From the NCBI RefSeq assembly GCF_014633365.1, contig NC_068341.1, positions 25,588,339 through 25,652,338 on the forward strand: a DNA stretch of 64,000 bases, in the 5' to 3' direction. Under the pieces are notes generated by a model that saw only the letters and a program-made list of their open reading frames with translations, was not told where the DNA came from and did not search any database. The translations under genes and the position numbers were made by a program. This document shows positions 29,135 through 61,380 of the stretch, in pieces. Source of the stretch: Diospyros lotus. Its lineage: Eukaryota > Streptophyta > Magnoliopsida > Ericales > Ebenaceae. Positions within the stretch are counted from its first letter, which is position 1; each line of letters opens with the position of its first letter.

Positions 29135-31128
29135 TTGGTCGCCGCATTGCCACCGCACATAGAGCTATTTTCAAGCGATGGGACGGCCGAGGGAGGGCTA
29201 GGGAAGGTTGTATACGGCGTGGGAAGGCTTAGGGGGCCAAGCCTTGGCCTCTGATTGGTTGAAAATGGCTAGATTTTGCCTATAAATAGCTAGGTTTTCG
29301 GCCAAGAGTTAGCACAAAAATTGGTCGAGTTTGAGGGTGAATCGAGGGAAACCAATAGAGGGATTTTGTTCTTGGAGTGGTGGGCATCATTTCTGGAGCA
29401 TTTGGAGGGTTTTTATCACGGTTTGAAGCTGTTTCAAGCTTTATCGAAAAATGTGAGGCGGACGCAAGGAGGCGACCTACAATTGGCTTTTTGAAGGTTT
29501 TTTCGGTGACTTTTCAGGAAACCAAGGGTGCTGTTGGGATCGACTTAGAGAGAACTTCAAGGGGGTGTGCTTAGATCGGGGATCCGAGCAGTCGCTGCCG
29601 GCCGGAAGCGAGGAAGAGGATCGGAGCGTGAGGGCGCGTGGGCCAAGAGTATTTTCTGGAATTTGTTTCAATATTTTTCTAAAATTATTTTAGGAATTAT
29701 CATGTTGAAAAATTTAGAAAAATGTTTGAGAAGATAATTATTTTGGAATTATCGAGGTGAAAACTAAGAGAAAAATAGAGGAAATTATGAAAAATTAAGG
29801 AAAAATGGATTTTGATGCTCCTTTAAATAAATATGATGTTTAGGGAGTGTTGTGGCTCAAGATTCAGTATAAGTACGGGTGTTTGAGGTTTGACATGCAA
29901 ATCGAGATGGTGCACAAGAATCGAGGTGTTCTAAATACGATCAAGATGAGTGTTTACCCCAAAACTTGTTTCATTGTGAGTTGTTCTACCCTAAAGACTT
30001 GGTATTTGTGCTACCTAAATGTGTTATGATTTCATGTAAAATGATTTTGTTGCATGCGAATGATAACCAGTAACGGTTGGTTTCATGTGGGAGGTTCGTC
30101 CCCAAATCATTTGGTTTCATGTGCATTATATTTTATGTAATTAATGGTGTCTATAAAATGTTGTTTATGTGTTGCATTGAGTTATGGAATGTGTCATTGT
30201 CATGCATTTTGTGTTGTCTGAATAGTGTAGCCGTAATTTTTTAAGGGTGTTGCCGAAATAATGTATAAGGGCATCTTGTGCTGGTGGGCATGCCGAGATA
30301 GCCGCCTAGGTTTCCATGCCGGGTTGTGTGGCCAGGAAACTTGCACTAGGAAGATTGGTGGTCCATATGGGATATGAGTTAGGATTGGGTAATGGTTCTT
30401 GAATGCTTTTAAGTGAGAACGTAATCCTTGATGTAATTGTGGTGAGTCGGGTTTCTACGTTGATGTGACCCTCTTGGGTTGGGAGTGGTAACGATTGTTT
30501 TCGAGGTATTGGGGAGATGCATTGGCATTGCCTCTCTTAAGCTAGGACCGTGTTGTGTCAATGTGTCGGTGTGGTGATGTTGCCTATAGAGAGATTGCTC
30601 TTTCCCCGTGGTTGAGTTAAGCGTTGTGTGGAATTCTCTTCAACTAGTGCTTGTCGGGTGGTGTCGGTTTGTTCATGTCTCGCATACATTCGTGAAAACA
30701 TGTTTTGAACTCTTACTTAGATGATTCATCATCTAATTTGGACTATGTCCCTGGAATATTCTAACGTTCCAAATGAAAACAGCGGTGCGAAAGGAAAGAG
30801 ATTGCTGATGAGTGACGGCGAGTAATAGATAGTTTATAGTATGTCGTTTTAATTATGTTGTTTATTTTAATGACGTCATGTAAATGATGGTTTGACTTTA
30901 AAGTTATAACTAAGATGGTTTCGGTTGTATACCATTTGAGATTTCGATCTAGCTTCCGCATTTGAGATGGTTTACCTGTCTTAGTTTATTAATGATTCCA
31001 TGCTGATATACTGATAAGGTGTAACGGGATTTTCGGGAAATAATTTATGTGTGGAGTTTCTATTGGAAAAAAAAATATATTCCCGAAATCTTACGTTATC
31101 TAATGTCCTGAGAAAGCGGGGTGTTACA
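29135..31128 (+). mobile_element. 5'-truncated LTR of the TGTAATACCC...GTTACA family
   Basis: Ends GGGGTGTTACA at 31128 and carries the family TATA box (TATAAATA, 29281-29288), an 'AGGGATTTTGTTC' region as in the solo LTR at 3867-6450, and the family palindrome at 30752-30771 with a neighbouring AGATGATTCATCATCT palindrome. The family's usual start and most of U3 are missing, so the left end is approximate. Contains no genes. Confidence 0.75.
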
Positions 31129-31434
31129 AAGAATTTTATGTTTTAGCTTGAATAATTATTTTTGAGTTTTTGATGGATTTTTTTTTGATTTTTTGAATGA
31201 ACTTGTTACTATGACACATTAGTACTTGTTTTATTATGATATCGCTATACGTTGATAATTTATAAAACAAATGATTCTTCAAACCATTTCAAAATAATTG
31301 AAATTCGTGAAACTATATATCATATTGGGAAGCACATTTGGTTAAATTTCAGGGTTTAATATATTTAATAAAGGTCTGAGCTATATTAACTAAATATAAA
31401 ACATCATCATCATGATCCTTGTTATATTATTATT
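31129..31434. other. AT-rich spacer
   Basis: No coding or structural signal. Its sequence resumes after 49260, showing it to be the integration site of the chromovirus. Confidence 0.6.
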
Positions 31435-33620
31435 TGTAAGCACCCTCGCCCGGATATCCCAACCGCCTGGTCTATCCGAACGGAAGCGCTTACAAAAGGG
31501 AAAGAGAAATAAACACAAGACAAAAATACCCTGACATGCATACATACGAAAAACACAACAGCGGAAACAAAACAATTCACATGCACGCCCACAAGCACCC
31601 TGCTGGAACAGCAGTTAAGGAGTATATAAAAATATACAGACACCTATGCCAACAAATAAAAGATACAAGAAACAACCGGGCATAGTCAAAAATGAGAGTC
31701 AGAACTCCTAACAAAACATCAGAGAAGACGGGGGTAGCTAACTATACACCCTACCGACATGGCTGGCTGCTAGGGGGCGCGGTCCTCGCCCTCGACTTTT
31801 GCTTTACCCTTACCTGGAATGATGGAAAGCAAGGTGAGTTGCAAGACTCAGCAAGTTTATATGAAAAGGAAAGCTGTAAACGAAACAGAAGAAGAGACCA
31901 CCCCAAATATAAACCCACATGTACACACAAGCCATGTGATGCAACAATGCACCATAATAAAACACATAACGGTCATTGGGGCCCCCATAAAACACCTGAC
32001 ACCCAAGTCCTCTACCAACTTGCCACTGCCCTGAAAGGAAACAAGGATCCCCAACAAACCTGTGCGCATTGTCCCGGGTCGGTACTCCCATCACCCGTAT
32101 CCCTGCTGGTACTCCCGACAGCCGAGCCATAGGCTCCCTCGGAATGGTACTCCCGTCCATGCAATGCATATAAAATGCAAGGCGTAATGAGCATCAACGT
32201 GATACAAAGTGCCCATACATCCAGGCATCAGGCCATGCTCCGCCCACGTAGTAAACCACACGCGATGCATATGCCCGTGCTGGATGCAACCTGACCAAGC
32301 TAGAATGTCCGTGATCAAGCATAACTAAATCATGATAATCCCATCATCCAGCCCGTACCCATGTGCATACCAAACCATGCAACAAGAATAAAATATAATC
32401 CAGCATGCTATAATCACATAACGATAGAGTTAGTCAGCAGTGCCTGACACCGATCAGCGGTCAGTGACTAGGAGAGATCATCTGACGGCCTAAGATAGAC
32501 CGTACAATAGTCACACCGTCACCGAACAGCTAACCCTTGCCCCCACTGCCCAACCGCTCTAGCCAATAAATAACTGAAAATCCAATAATAATACCCGACA
32601 GCTAAGAACCTAGCCCCAGGTGAGTACGACATCATTCTCATAGGCTTGGGGGTGATACAAACCCCCGTAGGCAACCAACGAATAATACCCTCGAAACCAG
32701 GTTAATAAATTAAATTATTAAACACACCGTTTAAATTCCATAATTTATTAACAGTCGAAATCAATGAAGGGAGGTCAAATAAATTGACATCGAAAGAATC
32801 GACAATGAGGGTATAAAGAACTTACCTTTCCGAAGATAGCCTTAGACTCAATTTGACCAAACGCGGTCAAAGCTATACAAACTGCAATAATCCAATTATT
32901 GACAAAATTAATAAAATTGGACCCTAAATAAAATTTCAACTGCAGAGAATATTAATTACTAACTGCTCTACATACCTGGATAATTAAATCAGGGATTAAA
33001 CAGAGTTTAATCCGATTTTTGAAGCATCAAATTTCTCAAATTTCCCTCGCGAGTTGCTGTTCTTTTCTATAAATCTCTTACTGTTCAATTTCACCAAAAT
33101 CATGCCCGAAATCGGGCAAAAATTCGGCTTTAAATTGGCCAAAAGGAGTGGCCAGCACGCGGCCACGTGGCAGCGCTGGGGTGGCCATCGCCTTCAGCCC
33201 AAAACGACGTCGTTTTGACGTCTAGGGGCTGAATTAAATATGCCAAAATTCCCCCCCTCGCGCGCAACCGCTCGCGCCCGCACGCTCACCTTAACCTATA
33301 TGCACAGCCATTTAATTTAAAGGGATTCTCGATCCCTTTTCTGAAATCGCGCCAGCCTCCCTCCAAATTCCATAAATTAAACTAACACCCACTTAATTAA
33401 TTACATTAACACCTGAAATTTCTAAAAATCCCACAATTGAATTTATTTAAATTTTTCTCTAATTCCAGAAATTCCTAAATAACAAAATTAATTATCTTAA
33501 TTTCCTATTTCCTTAAACTCACAAAATTTAATTTTATTTAATCACAACCAATAATTTTACCATTTCCTTTAATTTAAATTACCCCAAAATTAAATTAATT
33601 TGCCATTTACGAGCATGACA
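31435..33620 (-). repeat. 3' LTR of the chromovirus
   Basis: 2186 bp, TGTAAGCACCC...GAGCATGACA. On the minus strand a TATA-type sequence (TTTTATATACTCC) lies near 31621-31635, about 190 bases from the LTR end, with the hairpin CTGCTGGAACAGCAG (31601-31615) nearby. A perfect 16-bp palindrome AAAACGACGTCGTTTT is at 33201-33216 in U3. The 146-codon frame at 31692-32132 is not conserved in length in the other LTR. Confidence 0.93.
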
Positions 33621-33636
33621 GATCCTCCCCCCCCTT
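33621..33636 (-). other. Polypurine tract of the chromovirus
   Basis: Plus-strand GATCCTCCCCCCCCTT, i.e. AAGGGGGGGGAGGATC on the coding strand, directly before the 3' LTR. Confidence 0.92.
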
Positions 33637-33668
33637 AAAAGAATTTCGTCCCCGAAATTCGTACTTGG

Positions 33669-33834
33669 CTAGGCAAATAATTGAGGGTGAAGTCGCCTCA
33701 TGTCCTTCTCTAGCTCCCAAGTAGCCTCCTCAAGGGTATGCTGCTGCCATTGGACCTTCACATAGGGAATCGTATGGTTACGGAGCACTTTTTCTTTCTG
33801 ATCCACAATGTTAGTAGGCAACTCGGTGTATGAC
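33669..33834 (-). pseudogene. pol: Chromovirus pol C-terminus (chromodomain-like), separated by insertion
   Basis: Last 54 codons of pol. The frame runs through VLRNHTIPYVKVQWQQHT and EEATWELEKDMRRLHPQLF to a TAG at 33669-33671. The V-x-W ... E-E-A-T-W-E pattern is the usual C-terminal chromodomain-type tail of plant chromoviruses, thought to guide integration to heterochromatin. The preceding codons lie at 42421 and beyond; the frame is in phase across the nested element when one ATGAC copy is counted, so this segment was intact when the nested element inserted. Confidence 0.88.
33830..33834. repeat. Target-site duplication ATGAC (left copy)
   Basis: ATGAC here and at 42416-42420 flank the nested element exactly at its TG and CA ends. 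Confidence 0.95.
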
Positions 33835-34174
33835 TGATTCGTGATCAATTTTGTAAAAATTTTGTTATAATTTCACCCTTATTTTGATCTTAAAATAGTT
33901 TAAATTGAATATTATTATGCATTTTGTGATTTTGTGCATATTTAAAATATTAATATAAATATATATATAAAATATATAAAATATATAAAATATAAAAAAA
34001 ATAAATATAATATATATAATAATATAATAATATAAAAATATGGAAAGCCCAGGCCCAAGCCCAACACAAGGAAGGCCCAAGCCCAAGCCCAACACAAGGA
34101 AGGTTCAAGCCCAAGCCTAACACAAGCAAGGCCCAAGCCCAAAAATATGAAAAGCCCAAATCTCACAAATTGAT

Positions 34175-34290
34175 GACATCATCGCTTACATCATGGGTTG
34201 GAATGACATCATCACTTACATCATGGATTGGGATGACATCATCGCTTACATCATGGGTTGGAATGACATCATCGCTTACATCATGTATTA
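34175..34290. repeat. 30-bp tandem repeat upstream of the LTR TATA box
   Basis: Nearly four head-to-tail copies of a 30-bp unit beginning GACATCATCGCTTACATCAT, about 110 bases upstream of the TATA box. Each unit provides TGACATCA, one base from the TGACGTCA bZIP site. A promoter-enhancer role is inference. The identical array in the 3' LTR is at 41004-41119. Confidence 0.9.
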
Positions 34291-34397
34291 GATATTTTAT
34301 TTATCTTTGTATTTTTAAATTAGTTATTTTGTTTTTCTTTAGATATTTTGTATTATTAAATTATATAATTAAATGGTCTCCATTACATCCTAAAGCC

Positions 34398-34405
34398 TAT
34401 AAATA
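34398..34405 (+). promoter_or_regulatory. TATA box of the 5' LTR
   Basis: TATAAATA in the setting GCCTATAAATAGAGCAC, the canonical plant TATA context; transcription would start about 30 bases on. The 3' LTR copy is at 41227-41234. Confidence 0.8.
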
Positions 34406-34587
34406 GAGCACTTGGGGTTCATTTGTAAGAATTCAATTTTTCTATAATGAAAGTATAGTTTCGTTCTTAGGATTTCTCTCTCAAATTTTCACTTTAGTTT
34501 CAATATAGTTTCGTTCTTAGAATTTCTCTCTTAAATCTTCAACTTTTGTTTCCATATAGTTGTATTATGTTATTCAGATTGTCTTTT

Positions 34588-34800
34588 TATTATATACTGC
34601 CTATATGGTCGGTTGAATATTGTCTTTAAATATTGTCTTTTCATTATATACCGCCTATATGGTCGGTTAAAAAATAGTCTTTCAATTATTATCTTTTCAT
34701 TATATACCGCCTATATGGTCGGTTAAAAAATAGTCTTTCAATTCTTGTCTTTTCATTATATACCGCCTATATGGTCGGTTAAAAAATAGTCTTTTAAATA
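34588..34800. repeat. 56-bp tandem repeats in LTR leader
   Basis: Four copies of a unit that reads TATATACCGCCTATATGGTC then GGTTAAAAAATAGTCTTTCA, with the first copy most diverged. They lie downstream of the TATA box, hence in the transcribed leader. The other LTR has the same four at 41417-41630. Confidence 0.9.
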
Positions 34801-35591
34801 CTGTCTTTTAATTTTCGTCATTTAAATTCCTGCCAATTTATTTAAAAATGAAGATAAGTAGCTAAAACCAATCTTGGGTTAAGGCAAGGACAGTGTCCAA
34901 CGCCAATGATTCCCAAAGAAAGCTGCGCTTCAATTGTGTAATATTAATCTGATTTAATTTGAGCAGTGTGCGTATAGTGTATCTTTGAGTTTGGATTGGA
35001 GCATAAGCCTAACTTAGAGTTTCCATGCCACGTATGGAGATTGCTAGACCTGGAAATGTTTTCATACCCAAGCCCAAATGATTAATCTGTACCTATAAAT
35101 TCTATCTGTGGGATATAATTCAATTTATGATAATTGCTTAACTTAGAATTTCCATGCCATGTATGGAGATTACTTAAACAAGAATTATCATTATCTTGAA
35201 CTAAAATTACTCATAGATCTGCAAAACTTAATTCAAATGAATATTATTGATCTTTTCTATTAAGTTGGGAATTAATTAGTTTTGGCACTGAAATTGTCTT
35301 GACCCAAGCTACTTAAATTCAGTATTAGTTTAGTTTTAATTCTTACCTTTAAATCATCTTAATCACCTCCTAAACTCAAATATTTTATGATTTTTACTTT
35401 CAACCATAAATAATCTCCCTGTGAACCGACTCGGACTTACCGAAATATAAATTTAAAATTATACTACACGCACACTCGTACACTGGCGAGTATAATCGCC
35501 CTACACCTACTTTAATAAAAGGATTGACGTCTGATGAATTTGGTTGTAGTTTTGATAAATAAATGTGCAGGGTAGCGTAGCAGTCAGTTTT

Positions 35592-35609
35592 TGGCGCCGT
35601 TGCCGGGGA
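35592..35609 (+). other. Primer binding site complementary to tRNA-Asp
   Basis: TGGCGCCGTTGCCGGGGA begins five bases after the LTR. It is the exact complement of the last 18 nt (with CCA) of plant tRNA-Asp(GTC), the primer known from Athila-type elements. Confidence 0.9.
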
Positions 35610-35879
35610 GATTAAATTTGGTTGAATTTTGTTGTTTAAAAAAATATTAAAAAAATATTTTCAAAAAAATATATATATAAAATATATATTTGGAAAAAAA
35701 ATAATAAAATAATAAAAAAATATAAATTAAAAAATAATAAAAAATATAAATTAAAAATAATTAAAAAAAATTAAATTTAAAAAAATTTAGATAACTTTTA
35801 GTTACTAAACAGTGCAAGAGATTACGGTCAGGTATGATTATTGAAACATTAATTGATTCATTAGCATCATTATCTGCCG
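35610..35879 (+). other. AT-rich leader between primer site and ORF1
   Basis: Low-complexity A/T runs (35637-35800), no coding sequence. A longer than usual untranslated leader. Confidence 0.7.
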
Positions 35880-36908
35880 TTGAATTGTCATTTCATATTC
35901 TCTATGTCTCAGTATTTTAGCATGTCGGTGACTTCTAATGCATTTGGCCATCCCGATCCCAGCGAGGGGAGATTTTCTTTTGACCAGAGTCAGAGGGAGA
36001 ATTCTTATATGTCGGGCTACAACCCAGATCTTTACACTGATTACCCCAATTCCTATGATCATTGGAATTATCCTTGGAACAATGACTCTGTGTTCCAATC
36101 TCATGAGCCTTTTCCTCCACCACCTCATCAATTTGAGTTAGAACAAGGGGTTAGATCTAATGCTTATCAACCTCAGGATGAAAAATTTTTAGAGGACACC
36201 CTTCAGGAGTTTATGCAAGGTCAAATGAATTTTAACGCACAAGTGGTTGAACTTCAAGAACAAACCACTAAGGCCATAGGTGACATTTTAAAACAATTGA
36301 CCGAGTTTACACAGACCTTGAGCGTGAGTGAACCTAGCGAGTTTCCAAACCAACCTAATCAAAATTCCATAGGTCAATATCTTGGGGAGGAATCGTCATT
36401 CAATGCACCCATAGGTCAAGAGTCGGTCCAATCTATACCCATCCCTAGGAATGATGAACCAATTGAGAGACTTGATGACCCTAGGATGGTACGAGCAATC
36501 ATAGAAGAAAAATTGGGCCAAAATGATGTGAGAAAAGAAGAAGCCTGGGAGAAAGAAAAGGATAAAACCCAAGAGCCCAAATGTGAAGATACCATGGGCC
36601 TAGCCAAACTTGAGCCTAAATTTATGTCTTTTAGGCTAGTCTATATTATTGGGGATCAAATAAAACTAGACATGTGTGAAGTGTTTGTGCGAATTGTTGT
36701 GTCGTACTCTGATGTAATAAAGCCAACACCTCCGGATGACATATTTTCAAAATATGTATGTGCATTTATGAGAAAAATCAATTTACATAATTTTGAAAAT
36801 AACTTTAAAAGTGGTGTAATGAATGGGAGTTATTATACGAATAGGTGGGCAACCACTTATTTGATTCTTAACTGGAAGAAAAGAAAAAAACTCTTAAAAA
36901 ATATTTAA
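35880..36908 (+). CDS. Gag-remnant protein of the LOG-carrying element (ORF1)
   Basis: 342 codons, open throughout. The N-terminal half resembles the gag C-terminal linker of Athila/Tat elements: an aromatic/Asn/Pro-rich stretch (YDHWNYPWNN, then PFPPPPHQFE, about residues 60-83), a helical segment (LEDTLQEFMQGQMNFNAQ, about 105-122) and a QPNQN-type motif near 160. The capsid core and zinc knuckle of a full gag are missing. From about residue 215 it continues into a Lys/Glu-rich hinge and a C-terminal 110 residues I do not recognise, ending in a basic tail. The first Met is used, but Met at codon 9 or 14 is equally possible. It could still bind particles or RNA; alternatively the tail is a read-through of non-coding sequence. 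No stop or frameshift, unlike neighbouring elements. Confidence 0.6.
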   Translation: MNCHFIFSMSQYFSMSVTSNAFGHPDPSEGRFSFDQSQRENSYMSGYNPDLYTDYPNSYDHWNYPWNNDSVFQSHEPFPPPPHQFELEQGVRSNAYQPQDEKFLEDTLQEFMQGQMNFNAQVVELQEQTTKAIGDILKQLTEFTQTLSVSEPSEFPNQPNQNSIGQYLGEESSFNAPIGQESVQSIPIPRNDEPIERLDDPRMVRAIIEEKLGQNDVRKEEAWEKEKDKTQEPKCEDTMGLAKLEPKFMSFRLVYIIGDQIKLDMCEVFVRIVVSYSDVIKPTPPDDIFSKYVCAFMRKINLHNFENNFKSGVMNGSYYTNRWATTYLILNWKKRKKLLKNI

Positions 36909-37050
36909 AAATATATAATAAAATAAAATTTGTTTTTGTAATAAATAAATATAAATATATATATACACAAAAGAAAAAAAGATAGAGAAAAGAGGGAGAC
37001 AGACATATCGCTGACGGCAACCACTTTTCTGGGGCAGTGCAATCACACTG

Positions 37051-37192
37051 CCCTATAAAGAAAAAGGACACAATACCCTATAAAGAAAAAGAAACATCAA
37101 GCGTTGAAAAATAAACACCGAAAGTTGAAAAAGGAGACGCCGAAAGTTGTAAAAGGAGATGCCGAACGTTGAAAAAAGGAGACGCCAGACGT
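37051..37192 (+). repeat. Direct repeats of the internal promoter-like region
   Basis: Two copies of CCCTATAAAGAAAAAG (37052 and 37076) followed by four roughly 22-bp units around GTTGAAAAAGGAGACGCCGA (37102-37189). They stand 65 bases upstream of a TATA box, the layout of an enhancer-plus-core promoter. This region is unlike the AT-rich sequences on both sides. Confidence 0.75.
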
Positions 37193-37256
37193 GACCCTGC
37201 ACTTGTGGCACGCCTCGAGCCAAGTGTGGTTGTTGGAATGGTGACTTCCACAGCCC

Positions 37257-37264
37257 TATAAGAG
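37257..37264 (+). promoter_or_regulatory. Internal TATA box upstream of ORF2 and LOG
   Basis: TATAAGAG in GCCCTATAAGAGACCTG, 150 bases before ORF2, followed by a pyrimidine-rich likely start region (CTTCTTTGAGCTCAGTCTTCT, here about 37288-37308). With the repeats at 37102-37189 it could drive ORF2 and LOG without the LTR. Not proven by sequence. Confidence 0.45.
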
Positions 37265-37337
37265 ACCTGTATCTGCATGAGGCAAGCCACACTTCTTTGA
37301 GCTCAGTCTTCTCTCCTTTGTGTTGTTCTCTGATCAG

Positions 37338-37394
37338 GTACTCTCGTTCCTTTTGTAAGATTCATAATTTTGTTTTATTTCTCTTTTACTATAG
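37338..37394 (+). other. Predicted intron in the 5' UTR of ORF2
   Basis: Donor CAG|GTACTC, a T-rich 57-base body and acceptor TTACTATAG|TTCTG. ORF2 starts 15 bases after the acceptor. A second acceptor-like sequence, CTACTTTCAG|GGCAT (ends 38116), lies 24 bases before the LOG start, so splicing the same donor to it would give a LOG mRNA lacking ORF2. Short for a plant intron but acceptable. Confidence 0.4.
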
Positions 37395-37409
37395 TTCTGT
37401 TTTAAAAAA

Positions 37410-37955
37410 ATGGATCTTCAGCTCTTGAAAATTCACAAGTACTATCCATCTCTCCCACAAAATGATTTAAAAAAGATTTATGCCACTAGGTGTGAAAGAC
37501 TTCGGATGTTGATGTATAAAAATATCCCTGAGGATATTCGTTGGTTAATTGAAGCAAAAGTTCGATTTCTTGACGAAACCTCACCTAGTTTTAAGCATTT
37601 TCCAGGATTGGGAAAGAGTAGTTTTTCGAAAAAAAGAAGAGCAAAAAGATTAAATGGTTGTCACAAATGTGCTCGATGGACTTGTAACACACGATGCAAA
37701 TCTGTGGGGTTTACTTCCATAAATCGAGATGATAAAATTTGTTTCATAAAGGATGGGCTGAGTAAGGAGTCTTTGGATGATATCCGATTGACTCTTGAGA
37801 CGCATCCGTGTGGAATAGTGCAGCGAGAAATTCTTGCTTTATGGACCCAATTTAGAAGTGACCACCAATGCTATAGTCTTGGGAATCTGACTATAATTGA
37901 CCCTGTTTGCCAATCTATAAGAAAATTGGATGGGAAGCCTATCCCCGCTTCATAG
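37410..37955 (+). CDS. Basic cysteine-motif protein resembling flexivirus nucleic-acid-binding proteins (ORF2)
   Basis: 181 codons, open. Residues 37-56 (KNIPEDIRWLIEAKV...) precede a hallmark segment at 68-84: G-K-S-S-F-S then the basic run KKRRAKR (74-80), then the cysteines C84-x2-C87-x4-C92-x3-C96, followed by a 'K-I-C-F-I-K-D-G' stretch near 109-116. That order (small residues, arginine-rich run, compact zinc-type Cys motif, then a short hydrophobic-basic segment) is the layout of the small cysteine-rich nucleic-acid-binding proteins of carla- and vitiviruses (Betaflexiviridae), which in those viruses are nuclear or silencing-related. The likeness is from motif memory, not a search, and the Cys spacing is tighter than usual. 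The last 50 residues are unrecognised. If real, it is a virus-type accessory gene domesticated by a retroelement; alternatively an unrelated plant zinc-binding protein. Confidence 0.55.
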   Translation: MDLQLLKIHKYYPSLPQNDLKKIYATRCERLRMLMYKNIPEDIRWLIEAKVRFLDETSPSFKHFPGLGKSSFSKKRRAKRLNGCHKCARWTCNTRCKSVGFTSINRDDKICFIKDGLSKESLDDIRLTLETHPCGIVQREILALWTQFRSDHQCYSLGNLTIIDPVCQSIRKLDGKPIPAS

Positions 37956-38140
37956 AAGGTGTTTAAGCCGTTTCTGGACGTAAAACCAGAGGAAGATGTG
38001 AGCCACAATCACAACTACTTGTATATACGCATGATTTTTGTTTATGTTTATTTATTGTTGAATTTCTATGTAGTTACTTTTGATTGCCAAACCTCTTTAA
38101 CCAGTTCTACTTTCAGGGCATACATAAAGAACTAACATAA
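37956..38140 (+). other. ORF2-LOG spacer with a splice-acceptor-like site
   Basis: 185 bases, T-rich toward the end (TTTAACCAGTTCTACTTTCAG, ends 38116). The LOG start codon follows 24 bases later in the setting ACATAAATGG. Without splicing, LOG would be the downstream frame of a two-gene mRNA, poorly translated in plants. Confidence 0.55.
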
Positions 38141-38800
38141 ATGGAAAGCCAGCCAGTTCGTCGAATCAATACCATATGTGTACTATGTGGCTCTCAACCT
38201 GGGAGCGATATTTGTTACGCACTTGCAGCAAGCGAACTTGGCATAAAATTGGGAGAGAGAAAAATTAATTTGGTCTATGGAGGGGGAAGTCGTGGATTGA
38301 ATGGATGTGTTTCACAGGCTGCACATCTTGGGCAATCATATGTGGTAGGTATTATGCCAATCCCTTTGGCTGATCCACAGATTTTCGGGTACACACGAGG
38401 TCAACTTATAAGAACGACTTCTATGTTTGAGCGCATGGCTTGTAAGATTTATCAGTCAGACGCCTTCATTGCTTTGCCAGGAGGTTTTGGTACACTTGAA
38501 GAAATCTTTTGTATAATCTCCTGGGCCAAGAGCAATCTCCATGCCAAACCCATTGGACTTTTAAATATTAACCATTTTTTTGATGGGTTGCTCTCTTTTC
38601 TTGATCAGGCTATGGAACAAAAGTTCATTTCTCTTTCTGCAAGAAATATTCTCATTTCCGCATCCACCATTGAGGAGCTACTAGAGAAATTACACACTTA
38701 TGTTCCACAGCATGATCCTTACGAGCCTCGGATAGACTGGTCTAAAGTAATTGGAAGCAAGCGCAAAAGGGGTCCGATTAATTTAGATTTATCCCTCTAA
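38141..38800 (+). CDS. LOG: LOG-type cytokinin riboside 5'-monophosphate phosphoribohydrolase carried by the retroelement
   Basis: 219 codons. LOG enzymes release active cytokinin bases from their riboside monophosphates in one step, normally in cytosol and nucleus. Seen here: ICVLCGS at 12-18, the phosphate-binding YGGGSRGLNG at 46-55, Arg98 in SMFERMA, the signature PGGFGTLEE at 113-121 with its catalytic Glu, the KPIGLLN strand at 136-142 and the usual YVPQHDP end. Length fits plant LOGs (about 210-230). Changes from the plant norm: MFERMACKI for the MHQRKAEM type and GLNG for GLMG. The tail adds a basic GSKRKR (205-210) and ends INLDLSL, an LxLxL EAR-like motif. Plant LOG genes have several introns; this copy has none, which points to capture from spliced mRNA. 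No stop or frameshift. Alternative: another member of the Rossmann LDC-like family, but the signature is specific. Confidence 0.9.
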   Translation: MESQPVRRINTICVLCGSQPGSDICYALAASELGIKLGERKINLVYGGGSRGLNGCVSQAAHLGQSYVVGIMPIPLADPQIFGYTRGQLIRTTSMFERMACKIYQSDAFIALPGGFGTLEEIFCIISWAKSNLHAKPIGLLNINHFFDGLLSFLDQAMEQKFISLSARNILISASTIEELLEKLHTYVPQHDPYEPRIDWSKVIGSKRKRGPINLDLSL

Positions 38801-39010
38801 GGAGAGCAAGTCTATAATAACATGGCTGAGTAAGGAGTACTTTTCTGTACTCTTGAGACGCATCTGTTTATTTTGACTTGCATGAATTTATTTTATGTTT
38901 TGTTTTAAAAAATTATGGAATGTTGTTAGGCAAGTCTATGATAAGATGGCTGAGTAAGGAGTACTTTTTGTACTCTTGAGACGCATTTCTTTATTATATG
39001 ACTTGCATGA
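38801..39010 (+). repeat. Two 120-bp tandem copies of an ORF2-related module with a hairpin
   Basis: GCAAGTCTAT(A/G)ATAA..ATGGCTGAGTAAGGAGTAC (38806 and 38930 onward) occurs twice. Both carry a hairpin GAGTAC-loop-GTACTC followed by TTGAGACGCAT. The words CTGAGTAAGGAGT and ACTCTTGAGACGCAT also occur once inside ORF2 (37757-37806), so these are duplicates of an ORF2 segment placed after LOG. A role in 3'-end formation is possible but unproven. Confidence 0.7.
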
Positions 39011-40668
39011 ATTTTTCTTATTTCAGTGTGAAAAAAAATAAAAAAAATATAAAAAAATATATGTAGAGTATTCTCACTTGTTTGTTGAAGATTTAGCAGT
39101 TCACAATAAACTTACAGACTCGTGGAGTTACAGGTATTCCTAACAACCCTATTTTATTACAGCAATTCAAGTTGGGGGGAGTAAGGTATATTTATGAATT
39201 ATCTAGTCCATGTTTAATTGTGAATTTGTAACTGCATGCTTGTAGTTTTATGTGAATTATTTACTTTTATCTACTCCTATTAAAAATTAAAAAAAAAATT
39301 GTGTGTGCTTTAAATAATGCTATCCCTAAAGCTTTGGAGTTATAAACTGATAGCTAGTTGAATTTGCAGTATGAATCATGAATGCATTAATTTCTTATTT
39401 GAAAACGTACATGTATGGGATTAGAATAAGTGATTTGCATGCATCGGAAGTTCAATAATTAGAAATTGGTTTATCGGTCATAAAGTCAAAGGCAATGGTA
39501 ATTAGCACATTGCATGATCCCTTAACAGAAGTGGAGACTATTACCCGAGTGAGTGTTTGAGCCTAATGATCATTAATTTTGAGTGAAATAACACTTATTC
39601 TAAATGCGCTTTATTGTTGATCTCATATTTTCAATAGCTTCAAAACATCAATTTGCTTTGAATGTCTAGTATGATGGCAGATGAATTTGGCTGATTTCAA
39701 ACTCTGAATTAGTTGACTGAGTAACATCATTTTATAGAAGCATGATAGGGGATCAATTTCTTTCAATTTGGGCCTATTAACCTTTTTCTTTCTTTACATT
39801 AACCCCCTTGCTAGCCCATTTGAACTGTTCTTAGCATAATTCCTTTCATTACCCTCGTCTAACCTAGAACCATATGAAGTTTATCCAACCTGGTGTGTTT
39901 TTAGGAATCAGTCTATCTCGGTACTTTCATATTAAAAAGAAACAAAAAAAAAAAAAGAAAGAAAAGGAAAAAAAGAAAAAATAGAAGTTCTCTTAGCTTT
40001 TCAGCACGAGTGTTTCAAAATAAATGCTGAAAAAAACAATACGTCCAATTTGATATTAGTGTCAAAAAAAAAAAAAGAGAGAAAAAAAAATCTCGACACA
40101 CCATTTGCACACTTTACCCTTTTCTTTGACAACCCGTATTAACCTCATAGCCCCATTACAACCCGGTCTGGTCCCTCTTGATGCTATAAATCATGTGATC
40201 TTAGGATTCGAGTTCAGAGTAAAGAATTCTGTTTAAATTCAGAAGTTATTTATCTATGGCATTATTCCAGTCATGAAACTATGTTAAATTCCCTATTCTT
40301 TCATGAAAATACGTTCTTTGTATTTGGGACGACACCGAGTTTGAACTTGTTTTACATTTACTCTTAAAACGGTGGCTCCCTTGTGTGTACACCCGAGGAA
40401 TCATTTTTTTTATTTGAGGGAAAATCCATAGTAAGGTTTGAAGTCGAAACTTCGAGGGAATAAGGTAGAATAATGATCATCCTAATTGCCATTCCTAAGA
40501 TTGTATAACCTTTGACCGAAATCTAATTTAGAATATTCGACTGTATGACAGATGGCTTGTTCTGTTCTATGTATTTCCGTTTTGAATTTGAAATTTTTAT
40601 ATTCATGTGATTATTGTGAATAAATCTGGCCAGTGTAAAGTTTAATTGCTATGGGACTAGCAATGTTT
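39011..40668 (+). mobile_element. Long 3' non-coding region of the LOG-carrying element
   Basis: No ORF of note. A polypurine-tract-like AAGTTGGGGGGAGTAAGG lies at 39169-39186, almost the same as the true tract at 40669. Two A/purine-rich tracts (39930-39990, 40060-40092) flank a short coding-free stretch. Such long 3' regions are usual in Athila-type elements. Confidence 0.7.
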
Positions 40669-40681
40669 AAGTTGGGGGGTG
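40669..40681 (+). other. Polypurine tract of the LOG-carrying element
   Basis: AAGTTGGGGGGTG immediately precedes the 3' LTR. Confidence 0.88.
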
Positions 40682-42415
40682 TGATTAGTGATCAATTTTG
40701 TAAAAATTTTGTTATAATTTCACCCTTATTTTGATCTTAAAATAGTTTAAATTGAATATTATTATGCATTTTGTGATTTTGTGCATGTTTAAAATATTAA
40801 TATAAAAATATATATAAAATATAAAAAAAATAAATATAATATATATAATAATATAATAATATAAAAATATGGAAAGCCCAGGCCCAAGCCCAACACAAGG
40901 AAGGCCCAAGCCCAAGCCCAACACAAGGAAGGTTCAAGCCCAAGCCCAACACAAGCAAGGCCCAAGCCCAAAAATATGAAAAGCCCAAATCTCACAAATT
41001 GATGACATCATCGCTTACATCATGGGTTGGAATGACATCATCACTTACATCATGGATTGGGATGACATCATCGCTTACATCATGGGTTGGAATGACATCA
41101 TCGCTTACATCATGTATTAGATATTTTATTTATCTTTGTATTTTTAAATTAGTTATTTTGTTTTTCTTTAGATATTTTGTATTATTAAATTATATAATTA
41201 AATGGTCTCCATTGCATCCTAAAGCCTATAAATAGAGCACTTGGGGTTCATTTGTAAGAATTCAATTTTTCTATAATGAAAGTATAGTTTCGTTCTTAGG
41301 ATTTCTCTCTCAAATTTTCACTTTAGTTTCAATATAGTTTCGTTCTTAGAATTTCTCTCTTAAATCTTCAACTTTTGTTTCCATATAGTTGTATTATGTT
41401 ATTCAGATTGTCTTTTTATTATATACTGCCTATATGGTCGGTTGAATATTGTCTTTAAATATTGTCTTTTCATTATATACCGCCTATATGGTCGGTTAAA
41501 AAATAGTCTTTCAATTATTGTCTTTTCATTATATACCGCCTATATGGTTGGTTAAAAAATAGTCTTTCAATTCTTGTCTTTTCATTATATACCGCCTATA
41601 TGGTCGGTTAAAAAATAGTCTTTTAAATACTGTCTTTTAATTTTCGTCATTTAAATTCCTGTCAATTTATTTAAAAATGAAGATAAGTAGCTAAAACCAA
41701 TCTTGGGTTAAGGCAAGGACAGTGTCCAACGCCAATGATTCCCAAAGAAAGCTGCGCTTCAATTGTGTAATATTAATCTGATTTAATTTGAGCAGTGTGC
41801 GTATAGTGTATTTTTGAGTTTGGATTGGAGCATAAGCCTAACTTAGAGTTTCCATGCCACGTATGGATATTGCTAGACCTGAAAATGTTTTCATACCCAA
41901 GCCCAAATGATTAATCTGTACCTATAAATTCTATCTGTGGGATATAATTCAATTTATGATAATTACTTAACTTAGAATTTTCATGCCATGTATGGAGATT
42001 GCTTAAACAAGAATTATCATTATCTTGAACTAAAATTACTCATAGATCTGCAAAACTTAATTCAAATGAATATTATTGATCTTTTCTATTAAGTTGGGAA
42101 TTAATTAGTTTTGGCACTGAAATTGTCTTGACCCAAGCTACTTAAATTCAGTATTAGTTTAGTTTTAATTCTTACCTTTAAATCATCTTAATCACCTCCT
42201 AAACTCAAATATTTTATGATTTTTACTTTCAACCATAAATAATCTCCCTGTGAACCGACTCAGACTTACGGAAATATAAATTTAAAATTGTACTACACGT
42301 ACACTCGTACACTGGCGAGTATAATCGCCCTACACCTGCTTTAATAAAAGGATTGACGTCTGGTGAATTTGGTTGTAGTTTTGATAAATAAATGTGCAGG
42401 GTAGCGTAGCAGTCA
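40682..42415 (+). repeat. 3' LTR of the LOG-carrying element
   Basis: 1734 bp, starts TGATTAGTGATC and ends GTAGCAGTCA, then ATGAC. 18 bases shorter than the 5' LTR, mostly in the AT microsatellite near 40800-40860. Same 30-bp (41004-41119) and 56-bp (41417-41630) arrays; TATA box 41227-41234. Confidence 0.94.
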
Positions 42416-42420
42416 ATGAC
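42416..42420. repeat. Target-site duplication ATGAC (right copy)
   Basis: Matches 33830-33834 exactly. Confidence 0.95.
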
Positions 42421-43574
42421 GCATCCTCTTGCACCACAAGTGGATGATAATCAATAATATGCCCGGGATCTGCCACATACTTGCGAAGCATAGAAACATG
42501 AAAGACATCATGTACGTGGGCTAACTGAGGGGTTAAGGCTAACCGGTAAGTCAACGGTCCGACTCGCTCAAATATCTCAAACGGTCCCACATAACGAGGA
42601 CTCAACTTGCCAAATACTCCAAAGCGTCGAACACCCCTCATCGGCATAACCCGAAGAAAAACGTGATCACCCACATCAAACTTCAAATCCCAGCGTCGTT
42701 TGTCTGCGTAACTCTTCTGACGGTCTCGAGCTGCCTTCATCCTAGCCCGAATCAACTGGATCTTCTCTAATGTCTGCTCTACCAACTCCAGTCCAAGCAA
42801 TGCTCGTTCCCCAATCTCAGTTCAACAAAGCGGTGATCTACATGGTCACCCATACAATGCCTCAAATGGTGCCATCCTAATGCTGGCTTGGAAGCTATTA
42901 TTGTAGGCAAACTCCACTAGCGACAAATGATCATCCCAGCTCCCATAGAAATCCAGTACACAGGCGCGGAGCATATCTTCCAAAGTCCGTATGGTTCGCT
43001 CCGACTGCCCGTCAGTCTGAGGGTGGAAGGCTGTACTGAAAGTCAACTGGGTCCCCATAGCACTCTGTAACGCCTCCTAAAATCGTGAGGTAAATCGAGG
43101 ATCCCTGTCTGATGCAATGCTAGCTGGGACTCCGTGCAGTCTCACCACCTTATCAATGTATAATGTGGCCAGTCGATGAATAGGATAGGTCTTCTTGACA
43201 GGTAGGAAGTGCGCTGATTTAGTCAACCGGTCGATAATCACCCATATCGAATCCTACCCCCTGCTAGATCGCGGCAATCCCGAGACAAAATCCATAGCTA
43301 TGCGCTCCCATTTCCACTCCGGCACAAATAAAGGTCGTAACAATCTCGTGGGTCTCTGGTGCTCAGCCTTAACTTGCTGGCACACTAAACATCGCGATAC
43401 AAACTCTGCTACGCTTCTCTTCATGCCGCTCCACCAATATTGACGCCGTAAGCCCTGATACATCTTCGTCGCTCTAGGGTGGATAGTATAAGGAGAATGA
43501 TGAGCTTCCTCTAAGATCCTCTGCCTGATATCACTGTCACTCAGCACACAAATCCGCCCACGGAACAATAGCAA
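42421..43574 (-). pseudogene. pol: Chromovirus integrase
   Basis: Integrase domains in order on the minus strand. HHCC zinc-binding part (43254-43574): HHSPYTIHP... CLVCQQVK. Catalytic core: [10 protein letters not shown] and a SDRDPRFTS motif (43080-43250), then [17 protein letters not shown] with the catalytic Glu (42990-43050). C-terminal GPY/F-type part (42421-42800): GDHVFLRV, KLSPRYVGPFEI, YRLALTP, FHVSMLRKYV. All in one frame, with in-frame stops at about 43250, 43075, 42840 and 42815 that look like single transitions of Trp/Arg-type codons. Cut at 42421 by the nested element; the chromodomain tail is at 33669-33834. Confidence 0.92.
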
Positions 43575-45479
43575 GCCATCGTCCCTCTAGCTGTACCCCA
43601 ATGGACCAAATCTCTCTATATCAGCCATGATCCCGCCAAGCTCCACATCCTATCGCTGTCGATCGCGAATTTGATCCTCAAGATCCGAATGGATACTCAT
43701 GGCAGCACAATAGAGTGTAGGATTATCTGATGCCACTGAGATAGTAAGATCACTCATCTGCTCCAATAAGAACCACTCCTGCACCATCATAGCTGTAACT
43801 GATGCTCCACGACGACTCAATGCATCTGCAACCACATTAGCTTTACCTGGATGATAGAGGATCTCGCAATCATAATCTTTAAGCAACTCTAACCAACGGC
43901 GTTGTCTCATATTAAGTTCCCTCTGTGAAAAGAGGTACTTGAGGCTCTTGTGATCCGTGTAAATCTGGACTCTCTCACCATAAAGATAATGCCTCCAAAT
44001 CTTCAAGGCAAATACTACGGCCGCCAACTCCAGATCATGTGTAGGGTAGTTCTCTTCGTGCCTCTTCAACTGTCTGGATGCATAAGCATTTACTCGGCCG
44101 TCCTGCATCAAAACACATCCCAACCCTGCATACGAGGCATCACTATATACAGTAAATAACTCACCACACCTGGGTATCGTCAGTACTGGCGTCGAAGTCA
44201 AACGCCGCTTCAACTCCTGGAAAGATCTCTCACAAGAGTCGTCCCAAATAAATCTGACGCCTTTCCTCATCAACTTCGTCATGGGTGATGCAAGCCGTGC
44301 AAAGCCTTTTATGAATCGTCGATAATATCCGGCAAGGCCAAGAAAACTCCAAATCTCTGTCACTGTCATCGGTCTCGGCCAATCCATCACGGTTCTAGTC
44401 TTTTCTGGGTCTACTGAGATACCCTCACCTGAGACCACGTGTCCTAAGAATACCACTCGGGTCTGTCAAAACTCACATTTCGAAAACTTGGCATAGAACT
44501 GCTCATCTCTGAGCTTCTACAAAACCACGCTCAGATGTGCCTCGTGTATCTCAGGGCTCGGTGAGTAAATTAGGATGTCGTCAATGAAAACTATGACAAA
44601 AGAATCCAAATATTCCTTAAACACCCTATTCATCAAATCCATAAATACTGCAGGTGCATTGATCAACCCAAATGGCATGACCACAAACTCATAATGGCCA
44701 TAACGTGTACGAAATGCGGTCTTCACAATATCCTCATCTCTGACCCGCACCTGATGATAACCTGACCGCAAATCTATCTTGGAAAACACCGATGCACCAC
44801 GCAATTGATCCAGTAAATCATCCACACGGGGTAAGGGGTACTTATTCTTAATTGTTACCTGATTAAGCTGTTGGTAGTCTATGCACAGCCACATAGACCC
44901 GTCTTTCTTACGCACAAATAATACTGGAGCCCCCCATAGCGATGTGCTCGGTCGAATAAACCCCTTCTCCAAAAGATCTTGCAACTGCACCTCAAGTTCT
45001 TTCAATTCATTAGCAGCCATATGGTAAGGAGTCTTGGAAATAGGCTGCGTACCTGGCAATAGATCGACTGCAAAATCAATCTCCCGGTGCGGTGGTAGTC
45101 CAGGCAACTCATCTGGGAACACATCTGGAAAGTCTCGCACCACAGGATAGGCAGCCAACTCCTTCTTCTCCCCAGCTATCATGGTCACAAATGCAAAATA
45201 GGCTTCACACCCACGTCGTATAAGCCTCTCAGCGTGCATAATCGATATCATCGGCGTAATCACCACTGGCTTCACACCCCAGTATGTAACAACTGGTCTC
45301 TCCGGGTGCTCAAATGAAATCACCTTAAGACGACATTCAACTCGAGCATAGTGCCGTGAGAGCCAATCCATACCCAATAGTAAATCAAAATCCTGGATCG
45401 CCAAAACAATAAGATCTCCCCAAAATACCTGGTCATGAATCCCTATCTCGCAATCCCTAACCATCTCACTCCCCAACAA
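43575..45479 (-). pseudogene. pol: Chromovirus protease C-terminal part, reverse transcriptase and RNase H
   Basis: Same frame as the integrase. Residues of 44517-45479: the end of the aspartic protease ([16 protein letters not shown]), then RT with [35 protein letters not shown] (catalytic Asp), [11 protein letters not shown] and the FIDDILIYS active site. 43650-44456: RT thumb/connection ([19 protein letters not shown]) and RNase H with [35 protein letters not shown] and [12 protein letters not shown], all RNase H acidic residues in place. Two stops between the ORFs (44457-44516) and one more near 43620. RT active site intact, but the gene as a whole is dead. Confidence 0.93.
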
Positions 45480-46909
45480 TACCGTCCCTCGCGGTGTCGA
45501 AATAGATAAATCATATGGTAGGGGTTACACGGGATCGGGATCTTATGCAACAAATGGGGTGCTATAAAAGAATGGATAGAACCTGTATCAAATTAAGCAC
45601 GTACATCGTGACTATGGAGAGAAAGTATACCTTGTACCGTGTCACTGCCCTCAGCTGCCTCTGCGGCTGTCACCACAAACGCCTTCCCCTGCATCTGTAC
45701 CCTCTCTGTGGGCCCTGAGCGCTGTGCTGCTAGTAGGGGTAGTGGTGCTCCTGGACCTTGTGCCCTAGGTGTAAACTGTCTCTGAGCTGGTCTGGGTCCC
45801 ACACCTCCCATCCGTATCCCTCCAATCTGTCCTGGCTGGGTACATACATTCGCTCGATGGCCCCTCTGTCCACAGTGAAAGCAAATGACATCCTGCCCTG
45901 TGGCCGGTGTAGCCGGTCTGGGCCCCTGTGGACAGTCCCTCTTCAAATGTCCCAATTGACCACAGCGATAACACACGTCCCGACGTACATCCCGGCACTG
46001 CCCCTGGTGCCTCTGCCCGCACTGCCGGCACTGTGGAAGCCCAAAACTCTTACTGCCCGCATCCCACTTTCTCTTCTTACTGCTGCTCCTTGCACTCTTC
46101 ATGACTGACTGATCTAATCGTGCCTCCAATCGGTGCCACTCCACTGCGTGGGCTCGCTATACAGCAGTAGGAAAGTCGGGTGCCTCGATACCAGCCATGG
46201 CGTGACGAATCTCTGGTCGTAGCCCCCTCTAAAACTTGCTGACTCTGCGAGACTCAAGGGTCACTAACTCTGGAGCATATCGAGATAACGCCACAAAGTT
46301 AGTCTCGTACTGTGTGACTATCTTGCTCCCCTGTTGTAAGTCAACAAACTCAAACACCTTCTGCTCTCTGACCCAAGCCAGTACATAAGTCTCATTAAAC
46401 GCCGCAACAAACTGTGCCCATGTCGGGTCCCCATCACCATATCGCTGTCTGGTGGTCTCCCACCATCGCTCGGCGTCTCCTCGTAACAAGAAGGTCCCCA
46501 GTCGAACTCTATGGGCCTCTGCACAGCCTATAGATCGCAAATGCTTCTCCATATCCAGTAGCCAATCCTCGGCCACTGTCGTGTCGGCGCCTCCACTAAA
46601 CTCTGGTGGTCGTAGGGCCATAAAGTCTTTAAGTAATGCGGCACCAGAATTGTCCCTTGCTCTCGGCGTACCTGAATGTGACGCTTGGGCCGTAGCGGTC
46701 CTACCATCATGACTGCGCTCCTGACGTAACTGAGATGCTGCCAGTACGTCCACAACTCGTAGAAGACCTACCAATGTCTCATGCATGTCCGGAGGCCCTG
46801 GCTGTCTCTCATCTCCTGTATCCGTCGCCTGTACCTCAGGAGTAGGAACAAGATGCCCTCTACCTCGCATCAGCGGTCTACCACGACCTCGTCCACTGCG
46901 TGCGTCCAT
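45480..46909 (-). pseudogene. gag: Chromovirus gag with zinc knuckles, and protease start
   Basis: Start chosen at ATG 46909 (MDARSGRGRGRP), the first Met with a family-type basic start; an in-frame Met lies 17 codons earlier. Capsid part: LRPPEFSGG, EDWLLDMEKHL, WWETTRQRYGDGDPTWAQF. Nucleocapsid: CYRCGQLGHLKRDC and CFHCGQRGHRANVC, two CCHC-type knuckles, plus a preceding CRQCGQRHQGQC. After a stop the protease motif FDTGSIHSFI follows (about 45550-45590) with its DTG intact. Frame changes once near 45510, joining to the pol frame. Two other stops lie at 46145-46228. The original was probably one gag-pol frame, as in Tekay-type chromoviruses. Confidence 0.92.
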
Positions 46910-47030
46910 GAGTCCTACATAACCAAAATTAATTAGAAAGCATTTCGAAATTAAGGACACGACTTAACACTCTAACTCAACCTAACAGCCTTGATGTACA
47001 GTTACTTGTCCCCCAAATTGACTCAATGAT

Positions 47031-47042
47031 GCTCTGATACCA
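47031..47042 (-). other. Primer binding site of the chromovirus, tRNA-iMet type
   Basis: Reverse complement of plus-strand GCTCTGATACCA is TGGTATCAGAGC, four bases inside the 5' LTR boundary. Confidence 0.92.
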
Positions 47043-47046
47043 ACAT

Positions 47047-57378: not shown

Positions 57379-57990
57379 CTATAATAACAAAGGATTCACA
57401 CAACTAGGTTCATCCTCCACACATAACTGATCGGCGAACTCTTCGATACTCTTCTGTGGTAAAGAATCAATCCGAATTTCTCGGGAGCTCATAGGAAAAA
57501 AGGAAGAAGCAATCCGGGACAACAAATCTGCTTCCGTGTTCCTAGCCCGAGGGACATACTCCACCTTCACTAACTGAAAACGCGCGATTAGTTCCCCGAC
57601 CATAGCCAAGTATCTTGCCATATGACCTTCTCGAGCCTCATACTCCCCGGTCACTTGCTGTACTACCAAGTTAGAGTCCGAACTCACCTCGATTCGCTGC
57701 GCTCCCAACTGTTCAGCTAATCTCAATCTTGCTAACAAGGCCTCATATTCAGCCTCATTGTTAGATACTCGGAAGTCTAAATGCAAGGCATAGGGCCATA
57801 CCTGCCCATCAAGACTTCTGATCATTAGCCCTGCTCCGCCATCGCCCGAGGTCGAGCTCCCATCTACGGCCAACATCCATGGCCTCTGATCCTCTTCCGA
57901 AGCTTCTAGGGGTCCTATCCTTTCAGCAATGAAGTCTGCCAATGCTTAGGCCTTGATGGCCGGCCGAGACTTGTACTCAATATCAAAAAC
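57379..57990 (-). pseudogene. pol: Tat second (archaeal-type) RNase H
   Basis: RNase H fold with LAVDGSSTSGDGGAGLMI, SNNEAEYEALLARLRLAEQL, VSSDSNLVVQQVTGEY and NTEADLLSRIAS. The acidic residues (Asp, Glu, Asp, Asp) are all in place. This extra domain, located between the retroviral-type RNase H and the integrase, is a mark of the Tat lineage. Open over 187 codons. Confidence 0.87.
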
Positions 57991-61375: not shown

Positions 61376-61380
61376 CACTG

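Follow-up and report, generated by a model that had tools for sequence, protein, structure and literature searches.

A LOG gene inside an LTR retrotransposon

The window, a stretch of 64,000 nucleotides of the Diospyros lotus genome, contains an LTR retrotransposon at 33835–42415 that has an LTR pair with TG...CA ends, a target-site duplication (TSD), a primer binding site, and a polypurine tract (Table 1). The element carries a gag-like frame, a frame that we call NABP after its Pfam match, and a frame for a LONELY GUY (LOG) protein. The primer site lies 3' of the 5' LTR and the purine tract precedes the 3' LTR; therefore LOG is on the sense strand of the element. The sequence-only reading had proposed an intact, intronless LOG gene with PGGFGTLEE and the active Arg and Glu on the sense strand of a TSD-bounded element, and all of this stands: the frame encodes 219 aa at 38141–38800, with R98 and E120/E121, and lies inside the LTRs, the ATGAC duplication, the primer site, and the purine tract. 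The further statement that all neighbouring genes of the element carry stops is incorrect, as the NABP frame (37410–37955) and the gag-like frame (35904–36908) are open. NABP, the EAR-like tail of LOG, and the repeated stem-loop went unnoticed in that reading.

Table 1 Features of the LOG-bearing element in window coordinates
Feature	Position	Strand	Remarks
Target-site duplication ATGAC	33830..33834 (left), 42416-42420 (right)		5 bp
5' LTR	33835..35586	+	TG...CA ends; 1752 nt
Primer binding site TGGCGCCGTTGCCGGGGA	35592..35609	+	Just inside 5' LTR
Gag-like ORF	35904..36908	+	334 aa, open
NABP ORF	37410..37955	+	181 aa, open; KKRRAKR basic run and Cys-rich finger CHKCARWTCNTRC
Stem-loop 1	37751..37807	+	Inside NABP frame; CTGAGTA / TTGAGACG internal loop
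Candidate U-rich intron	37998..38116	+	Between NABP and LOG; ..GAT/GTGAGC donor-like, TTCTACTTTCAG/G acceptor-like (slash, putative boundary)
LOG ORF	38141..38800	+	219 aa, ATG to TAA; Rossmann-fold phosphoribohydrolase family
LOG C-terminal tail SKRKRGPINLDLSL	38756..38797	+	Basic run and EAR-like LxLxL (INLDLSL)
Stem-loop 2	38820..38867	+	Behind LOG; lower stem weaker than in others
Stem-loop 3	38944..38990	+	Behind LOG; shares 109-nt duplication with stem-loop 2
Polypurine tract AAGTTGGGGGGTG	40669..40681	+	Directly before 3' LTR
3' LTR	40682..42415	+	TG...CA ends; 1734 nt

The 5' and 3' LTRs have diverged at 20 of 1734 sites (K 0.0116), which, at rates of 1.3e-8 and 7e-9, dates the insertion to 0.45–0.83 My. 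Both LTRs contain ~56-bp tandem repeats (34569–34869 and 41398–41698), the number of which may vary among related copies, to judge from overlapping matches. The gag-like frame has no Pfam match. The ORF list holds no pol-like frame of at least 50 aa between the LTRs, and the window copy is therefore not autonomous.

The element is nested in the internal region of an older Ty3/gypsy element (about 31434–49255), the LTRs of which (31434–33620 and 47046–49255) are 94.6% identical and the TSD of which, read by eye, is TTATT. The interrupted gag-pol pieces at 42330–46963 (minus strand) are assigned to this enclosing element, not to the LOG element. Elsewhere in the window are three related repeat units (7948–10684, 13667–16454, and 17804–20075; 92% and ~74% identical), additional direct repeats of 71–73% identity (5083–6420 and 29619–31098), and further retroelement fragments on the minus strand (57382–57942 and 61303–61770) with Pfam matches to RVT_3/RNase H and reverse transcriptase.

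The LOG protein keeps the fold and the catalytic residues

The LOG frame has zero internal stops and zero introns; capture through mRNA would fit the absence of introns. The protein matches Pfam Lysine_decarbox (PF03641; 8e-32, above cut-off) and NCBIfam TIGR00730 (146 bits, cut-off 96). It scores 92.6 against the NF058542 equivalog cut-off of 300, which is also missed by three other element-type LOGs and two host LOGs tested (131–132). The nearest solved relatives are Arabidopsis At2g37210 and At5g11950, at 44–48% identity. An AlphaFold2 model (mean pLDDT 85, confident over most of residues 4–201) is superimposable on At2g37210 with a TMt of 0.94, and its top PDB matches are At2g37210, At5g11950, and bacterial LOGs. 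Residues 202–219 are modelled with pLDDT under 50, and the C-terminal tail is probably disordered. In viral contigs, a single-sequence search with LOG detects no relatives, and an alignment search detects 29 loci at 22–40% identity.

Plant LOG enzymes convert inactive cytokinin ribotides to free cytokinin, which favours division in meristems. The catalytic residues of LOG, which we take to be R98, E120/E121, and PGGxGT, are conserved: the window LOG has PGGFGTLEE and R98; among 108 element-type LOGs, R98 is kept in 98%, E120 in 97%, and E121 in 98%; and all three residues are kept in 37/37 in-frame copies of the window LOG. Other positions have diverged. Across 122 host LOGs, 107 columns are at least 97% invariant, and the window LOG keeps 69 of these and changes 38, including K99 and M54. 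Most element-type LOGs have lost K99, which does not vary among the host LOGs sampled; M54, G65, and Q130 are additionally changed in the clade of the window LOG.

Element-type LOGs form a group with a C-terminal tail

The LOG ends in a basic run followed by LxLxL. Among the 120 LOG matches listed, LxLxL lies within four residues of the end in 87, and a basic run (loose pattern) precedes it in each of these. The tail is found in 86 of 103 near-full-length non-host matches and in 0 of 119 matches of a host-LOG query; its absence from host LOGs is valid for this 119-match sample, which is skewed towards LOG1/LOG3-like proteins, and for P0105, P0115, and P0119. Within Diospyros lotus, the tail is kept in 37/37 in-frame copies of the window subfamily and in 8/8 copies of a second subfamily described below.

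LOGs with the tail come from plants that include Diospyros, Populus, Diplodiscus, Reevesia, Pterospermum, and Rehmannia; Diospyros, the one in which location within an element was observed, belongs to Ericales. Full-length frames with the catalytic residues and the tail come from named sources in several plant families. The matches from Xanthoceras and Primulina have the basic run and lack LxLxL. In a tree of 49 proteins, one branch (support 100/100) separates 30 element-type LOGs, the window LOG included, from 19 host LOGs, which are mostly LOG1/LOG3-like. With their basic and LxLxL tail, the element-type LOGs are set apart as a group from the host LOGs sampled.

The LxLxL sequence corresponds to the EAR motif found in TOPLESS-binding repressors of plants. 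We assume from this short motif that the tail would bind TOPLESS. The LOG fold may have been repurposed, making no cytokinin and serving as a nucleotide binder or scaffold that carries the EAR-like tail to TOPLESS and disturbs host repression or silencing. In favour of this reading are the tail and basic run themselves, shared features absent from the sampled host LOGs, together with the loss of K99 in most element-type LOGs and the changes at M54, G65, and Q130 in the window clade. However, a bare scaffold does not need the residues regarded as catalytic, and these are kept at 97–98% or more. We consider repurposing possible but doubtful.

Conversely, LOG may be a plain cytokinin enzyme that only raises free cytokinin, with the tail playing a minor role in stability or localisation. 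The preserved fold and motif, and the dN/dS of 0.31 given below, are in accordance with this. However, the tail is here as well kept as the active site (37/37 and 8/8 copies) and is present in 86/103 near-full-length matches, the Xanthoceras and Primulina proteins without LxLxL notwithstanding, and we regard a plain enzyme as rather unlikely.

NABP is related to nucleic acid-binding proteins of carlaviruses

NABP is encoded just upstream of LOG by an intact frame. Viral NABPs have a basic run before a Cys-rich finger, and the element protein has the same arrangement. It matches Pfam Viral_NABP (PF05515; 2.4e-7, 31 bits, cut-off 23) and Carla_C4 (PF01623; 1.2e-4, above cut-off), families of carlavirus and allexivirus proteins such as chrysanthemum virus B p12; the Pfam match covers residues 38–119 only. 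Unlike the carlavirus proteins, it is encoded by an LTR retrotransposon; it has 181 aa and a function predicted from its sequence. A Viral_NABP match at E of 1e-3 or less is obtained for 17 of 20 aligned homologues, each alone. The AlphaFold2 model of NABP is poor (pLDDT 54).

A protein search returns 349 homologues of NABP. The named organisms among the 120 listed are all plants (Populus, Xanthoceras, Acer, Rhamnella, and Orobanche), and no relatives are found in viral contigs. Three predicted Orobanche proteins (P0166, P0199, and P0238) contain the NABP and LOG domains in one chain. In addition, contigs of 8723 and 4511, matched by size alone, recur in the match lists of both proteins, which suggests that the NABP–LOG neighbourhood is also present in other plants. 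The carlavirus p12 of chrysanthemum virus B is described in PMC7588395 as a nuclear transcription activator and a cytoplasmic silencing suppressor.

NABP and LOG are carried by many copies, with and without pol

A DNA search of the same assembly with LOG returns 895 first-look candidates. The 40 that were scored are 98–100% identical, 39 spanning all 660 bases and one spanning 659. NABP and LOG occur together, some of them broken, in 39/39 other copies fetched. LOG is intact in 35 of the 39, with a stop in two and a short or shifted frame in two; NABP is intact in 30, with a stop in four and gaps or a partial frame in five. Upstream of NABP, 15 copies have integrase sequence (in L059, only a short 52% match), a window-type gag frame is present in full or in part in 21 (full and open in 14), and three have neither.

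Three integrase-bearing copies were followed upstream, and each reads LTR, gag-pol, NABP, LOG, and 3' LTR sequence. The C11 copy has a TSD (GCGGG) and LTRs that differ at 6 of 1883 sites (0.3%); its gag-pol is one uninterrupted frame of 1846 aa, in which gag, protease, RT, RNase H, and integrase domains are recognised. The C1 copy has a TSD (AAGTG), an LTR K of 0.0102, and an open gag-pol frame of 1840 aa; in the C5 copy the frame is broken in two. The primer site of the window copy is the same in these three, one of them with a single base changed. Intact pol-bearing copies thus exist in the genome, the gene order of the lineage is LTR–gag-pol–NABP–LOG–stem-loops–LTR, and the pol-less window type is presumably mobilised by pol-bearing copies.

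The NABP–LOG part is 97–99% identical to the window in pol-less and pol-bearing types alike, whereas the window-type gag-like region matches the gag-pol frame of pol-bearing copies only at 36155–36377 (~70% identity) and has no match in them outside this stretch. Since gag differs while NABP and LOG are near-identical, the pol-less type did not arise by recent loss of pol from the present pol-bearing copies; 3' parts have probably been swapped between the two types. The occurrence of NABP and LOG in pol-less copies is compatible with a benefit to the element and is equally explained by recent exchange with pol-bearing copies; because of this exchange, it is weak evidence of benefit.

A second subfamily was found through P0002, a protein annotated as LOGL10 of Diospyros lotus that is 84% identical in amino acids to the window LOG. 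When the assembly is searched with the P0002 protein, 1127 first-look candidates are returned, 150 of which were scored: identity is 96–100%, 149 cover residues 1–219 and one covers 1–218, and nine have a stop. In the best-scoring 8 of these 150, NABP (88% identical in amino acids) directly precedes LOG. In total, at least 190 LOG copies were scored across both subfamilies.

The annotation of P0002 as LOGL10 is the point in favour of reading these LOGs as host genes that are merely near transposons, or as annotation artefacts. For Diospyros lotus, a host gene beside a transposon is refuted by the LTRs and TSD and by the NABP adjacency. LOG lies between LTRs with a TSD, a primer site, and a purine tract, and the further copies for which the sequence-only reading had called turned up in number, NABP adjoining LOG in 39/39 and 8/8 copies out of 895 and 1127 first-look candidates. 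We consider the host-gene reading hardly credible.

Outside the genome, the contig L001 has an integrase followed by an NABP that is 69% identical in amino acids to that of the window, and the ~980 nt beyond this NABP contain no LOG frame; the NABP–LOG pair is therefore not obligatory. L001 is a plant-like retrotransposon contig filed under a Candidatus Nomurabacteria MAG, probably a contamination of a public bacterial genome.

LOG and NABP are under purifying selection between subfamilies

Comparison of the two subfamilies gives a dN/dS of 0.31 for LOG (window versus L087, 0.33; bootstrap 0.20–0.55) and of 0.19 for NABP (bootstrap 0.10–0.34). LOG dS is 0.25, and the noncoding divergence is 0.19 behind LOG and 0.12 between NABP and LOG. 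For NABP against L001, dN/dS is 0.25 (NG86) or 0.39 (LWL85). These values indicate purifying selection on both genes between the subfamilies. The copies in the selection tests are the best-scoring ones, and database matches are a biased sample in which protein prediction favours open frames.

Within the window subfamily, against a spectrum-corrected expectation, omega is 0.52–0.55 for NABP (p 0.006–0.012), 0.76–0.77 for LOG (p 0.14–0.15), which is near neutral, and 1.2–1.3 for the gag-like frame. Pooled pN/pS is 0.27, 0.57, and 0.63 for NABP, LOG, and the gag-like frame, respectively, and pN/pS of LOG in copies compared with the window alone is 1.10. Near-neutral variation of LOG among young copies is what insertions that have ceased to transpose would show. 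The pattern fits elements that are conserved while transposing and drift after insertion. By the dN/dS test that the sequence-only reading had set, LOG looks maintained between subfamilies (0.31) and is close to neutral among young copies (omega ~0.76, p 0.14).

A one-off passive capture special to one insertion, the outcome that the sequence-only reading had set against a working module, is not what we find, as many copies in two subfamilies have LOG. In a broader form, LOG may have been captured once and ride along as a passenger that does not help the element. The omega of ~0.76 within the window subfamily, not different from neutral (p 0.14), is consistent with this, as are the pN/pS of 1.10 against the window and the fact that L001 manages without LOG. 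The omega of 0.31 between subfamilies (bootstrap 0.20–0.55), seen once so far, argues against it, and so do complete frames from several plant families that keep the catalytic residues and the tail. We consider a passenger improbable. LOG looks maintained, because it is full-length in the scored copies, a second subfamily also has it, and dN/dS between the subfamilies is 0.31.

Stem-loops and other RNA features

The pattern CTGAGTANGGAGT...ACTCTTGAGACGCAT, which marks the three stem-loops, occurs three times in the window (37758, 38826, and 38950) and in 0 of 100 shuffles. The fold z-scores of the stem-loops are -3.0, -3.9, and -5.7, and that of the counterpart in L001 is -3.1. The likeness of stem-loops 2 and 3 is not independent, because both are part of a duplication. 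A scan of the window, L001, and eight second-subfamily loci finds 29 instances, 11 of them distinct; it required TGAGTA and GAGACG, and the sameness of the loop in these instances is partly a consequence of that requirement. Each half of the internal loop is unchanged in 37–39 of 40 window-subfamily copies, which are nearly identical anyway.

The stems covary. Inside NABP the pair is GGATG/CATCC, and behind LOG most copies have AGATG paired with CATCT or CATTT; AGGAGTC/GACTCTT corresponds to AGGAGTAC/GTACTCTT; the apical loop is variable. Rfam has no family match for the stem-loops (matches listed have E 0.44–6.3, far below the gathering scores of their families). Synonymous constraint at the NABP stem-loop is not significant on its own, in comparison with either L001 (14/17 versus 66/104 codons, p 0.10) or L087 (18/20 versus 114/135 codons, p 0.40).

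Codons 156–180 of NABP are synonymously constrained in both comparisons (L001, 19/20 versus 61/101, p 0.0014; L087, 21/21 versus 111/134, p 0.026). The stretch that follows the NABP stop (37956–38010) is also strikingly similar in the distant L001 (2345–2420), and a splice donor or some other signal in the RNA may lie here. The sequence around this stop codon does not fold unusually (z -0.4 and -0.7). The U-rich stretch at 37998–38116 could be an intron, judged from its ends, which are kept in 36/40 (donor-like) and 32/40 (acceptor-like) copies.

Relation to known elements

The primer site is presumably the complement of the 3' end of tRNA-Asp, a PBS type that we take to mark the Athila lineage. 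On the basis of this site and of the gag-PR-RT-RH-INT domain order, seen in one copy scanned with Pfam, we call the lineage Athila-like. Extra genes between pol and the 3' LTR are a further shared feature; the difference is that the extra genes here are NABP and LOG. Pfam scans of three ORFs from the window and of four pieces of gag-pol give no ATHILA ORF1 or env-like match; such an ORF is not known from all Athila elements.

With respect to its enzyme, the element LOG shares with plant LOG phosphoribohydrolases the fold, PGGxGTxEE, R98, and the length, and differs from them in the basic and LxLxL tail, the loss of K99, the intronless frame, and the one-branch split from the sampled host LOGs.

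Two Athila-like elements are reportedly similar to LOGL4, in work by Steinbauerova and colleagues. PMC9289625, which cites Steinbauerova et al. 2011, places a LOG domain, under the name YgdH, in consensus sequences of LTR elements from two Citrus species and, once the filter of that paper is removed, from Populus. These are likewise LOG domains in plant Ty3/gypsy LTR elements, and LOG in such elements is therefore not new. Both sources reportedly only name the domain, whereas our analysis adds the NABP pairing, the EAR-like tail, purifying selection between subfamilies, pol-bearing and pol-less copies, and repeated stem-loops. LOG-related terms do not occur in the passages searched of PMC7264820, PMC6317226, and PMC11728184, nor does 'nucleic acid binding' in those of PMC7264820, and in open-licence literature we find no report of the NABP–LOG pair, the EAR-like tail, or the stem-loop. 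A plant LTR element with a cellular enzyme as an extra gene has a parallel with a different enzyme in Phalaenopsis, a single genus, in which Ty3/gypsy elements carry an AlkB-type RNA demethylase with activity tested in vitro, according to PMC9289625.

A proposed host-directed role for NABP and LOG

We infer that both NABP and LOG adjust the host cell for the element. To the full proposal, in which an Athila-like Ty3/gypsy lineage has NABP and LOG as its two accessory genes, both with this role, we give about even credence. NABP, by analogy with the related carlavirus p12, would act as a nuclear regulator, a silencing suppressor, or both. Active cytokinin released by LOG would keep the cell that expresses it dividing and meristem-like, so that new insertions can reach the next generation. 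The tail of LOG would direct the protein to the nucleus and to TOPLESS-type corepressors, and the stem-loops could be recognition sites on the element RNA, perhaps for NABP. The most economical model would be a cassette of two accessory genes that together improve the conditions for transposition and inheritance in the cell expressing them.

A wider version is tentative, and we hold it to be unlikely as a whole. It envisages a lineage resembling complex retroviruses over several eudicot orders, which combines gag-pol with a host-control cassette of a zinc-finger regulator and a cytokinin enzyme with a TOPLESS-recruiting tail, and which marks its RNA by stem-loops. The cassette would bring about a dividing, meristem-like state with weakened repression, and NABP would have been exchanged with carlavirus-type viruses, in either direction.

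On this wider reading, the NABP common to both would be a sign that retrotransposons and carlavirus-type RNA viruses have traded genes. For genome annotation, the element LOG P0002 is annotated as host LOGL10 and has NABP beside it at eight loci, and plant LOG gene counts may accordingly be inflated. NABP and the EAR-like tail make the purpose of extra ORFs in plant retrotransposons directly testable with small proteins. If the element enzyme works, a mobile element makes a selected hormone-releasing enzyme, which would link transposition to the control of cell division.
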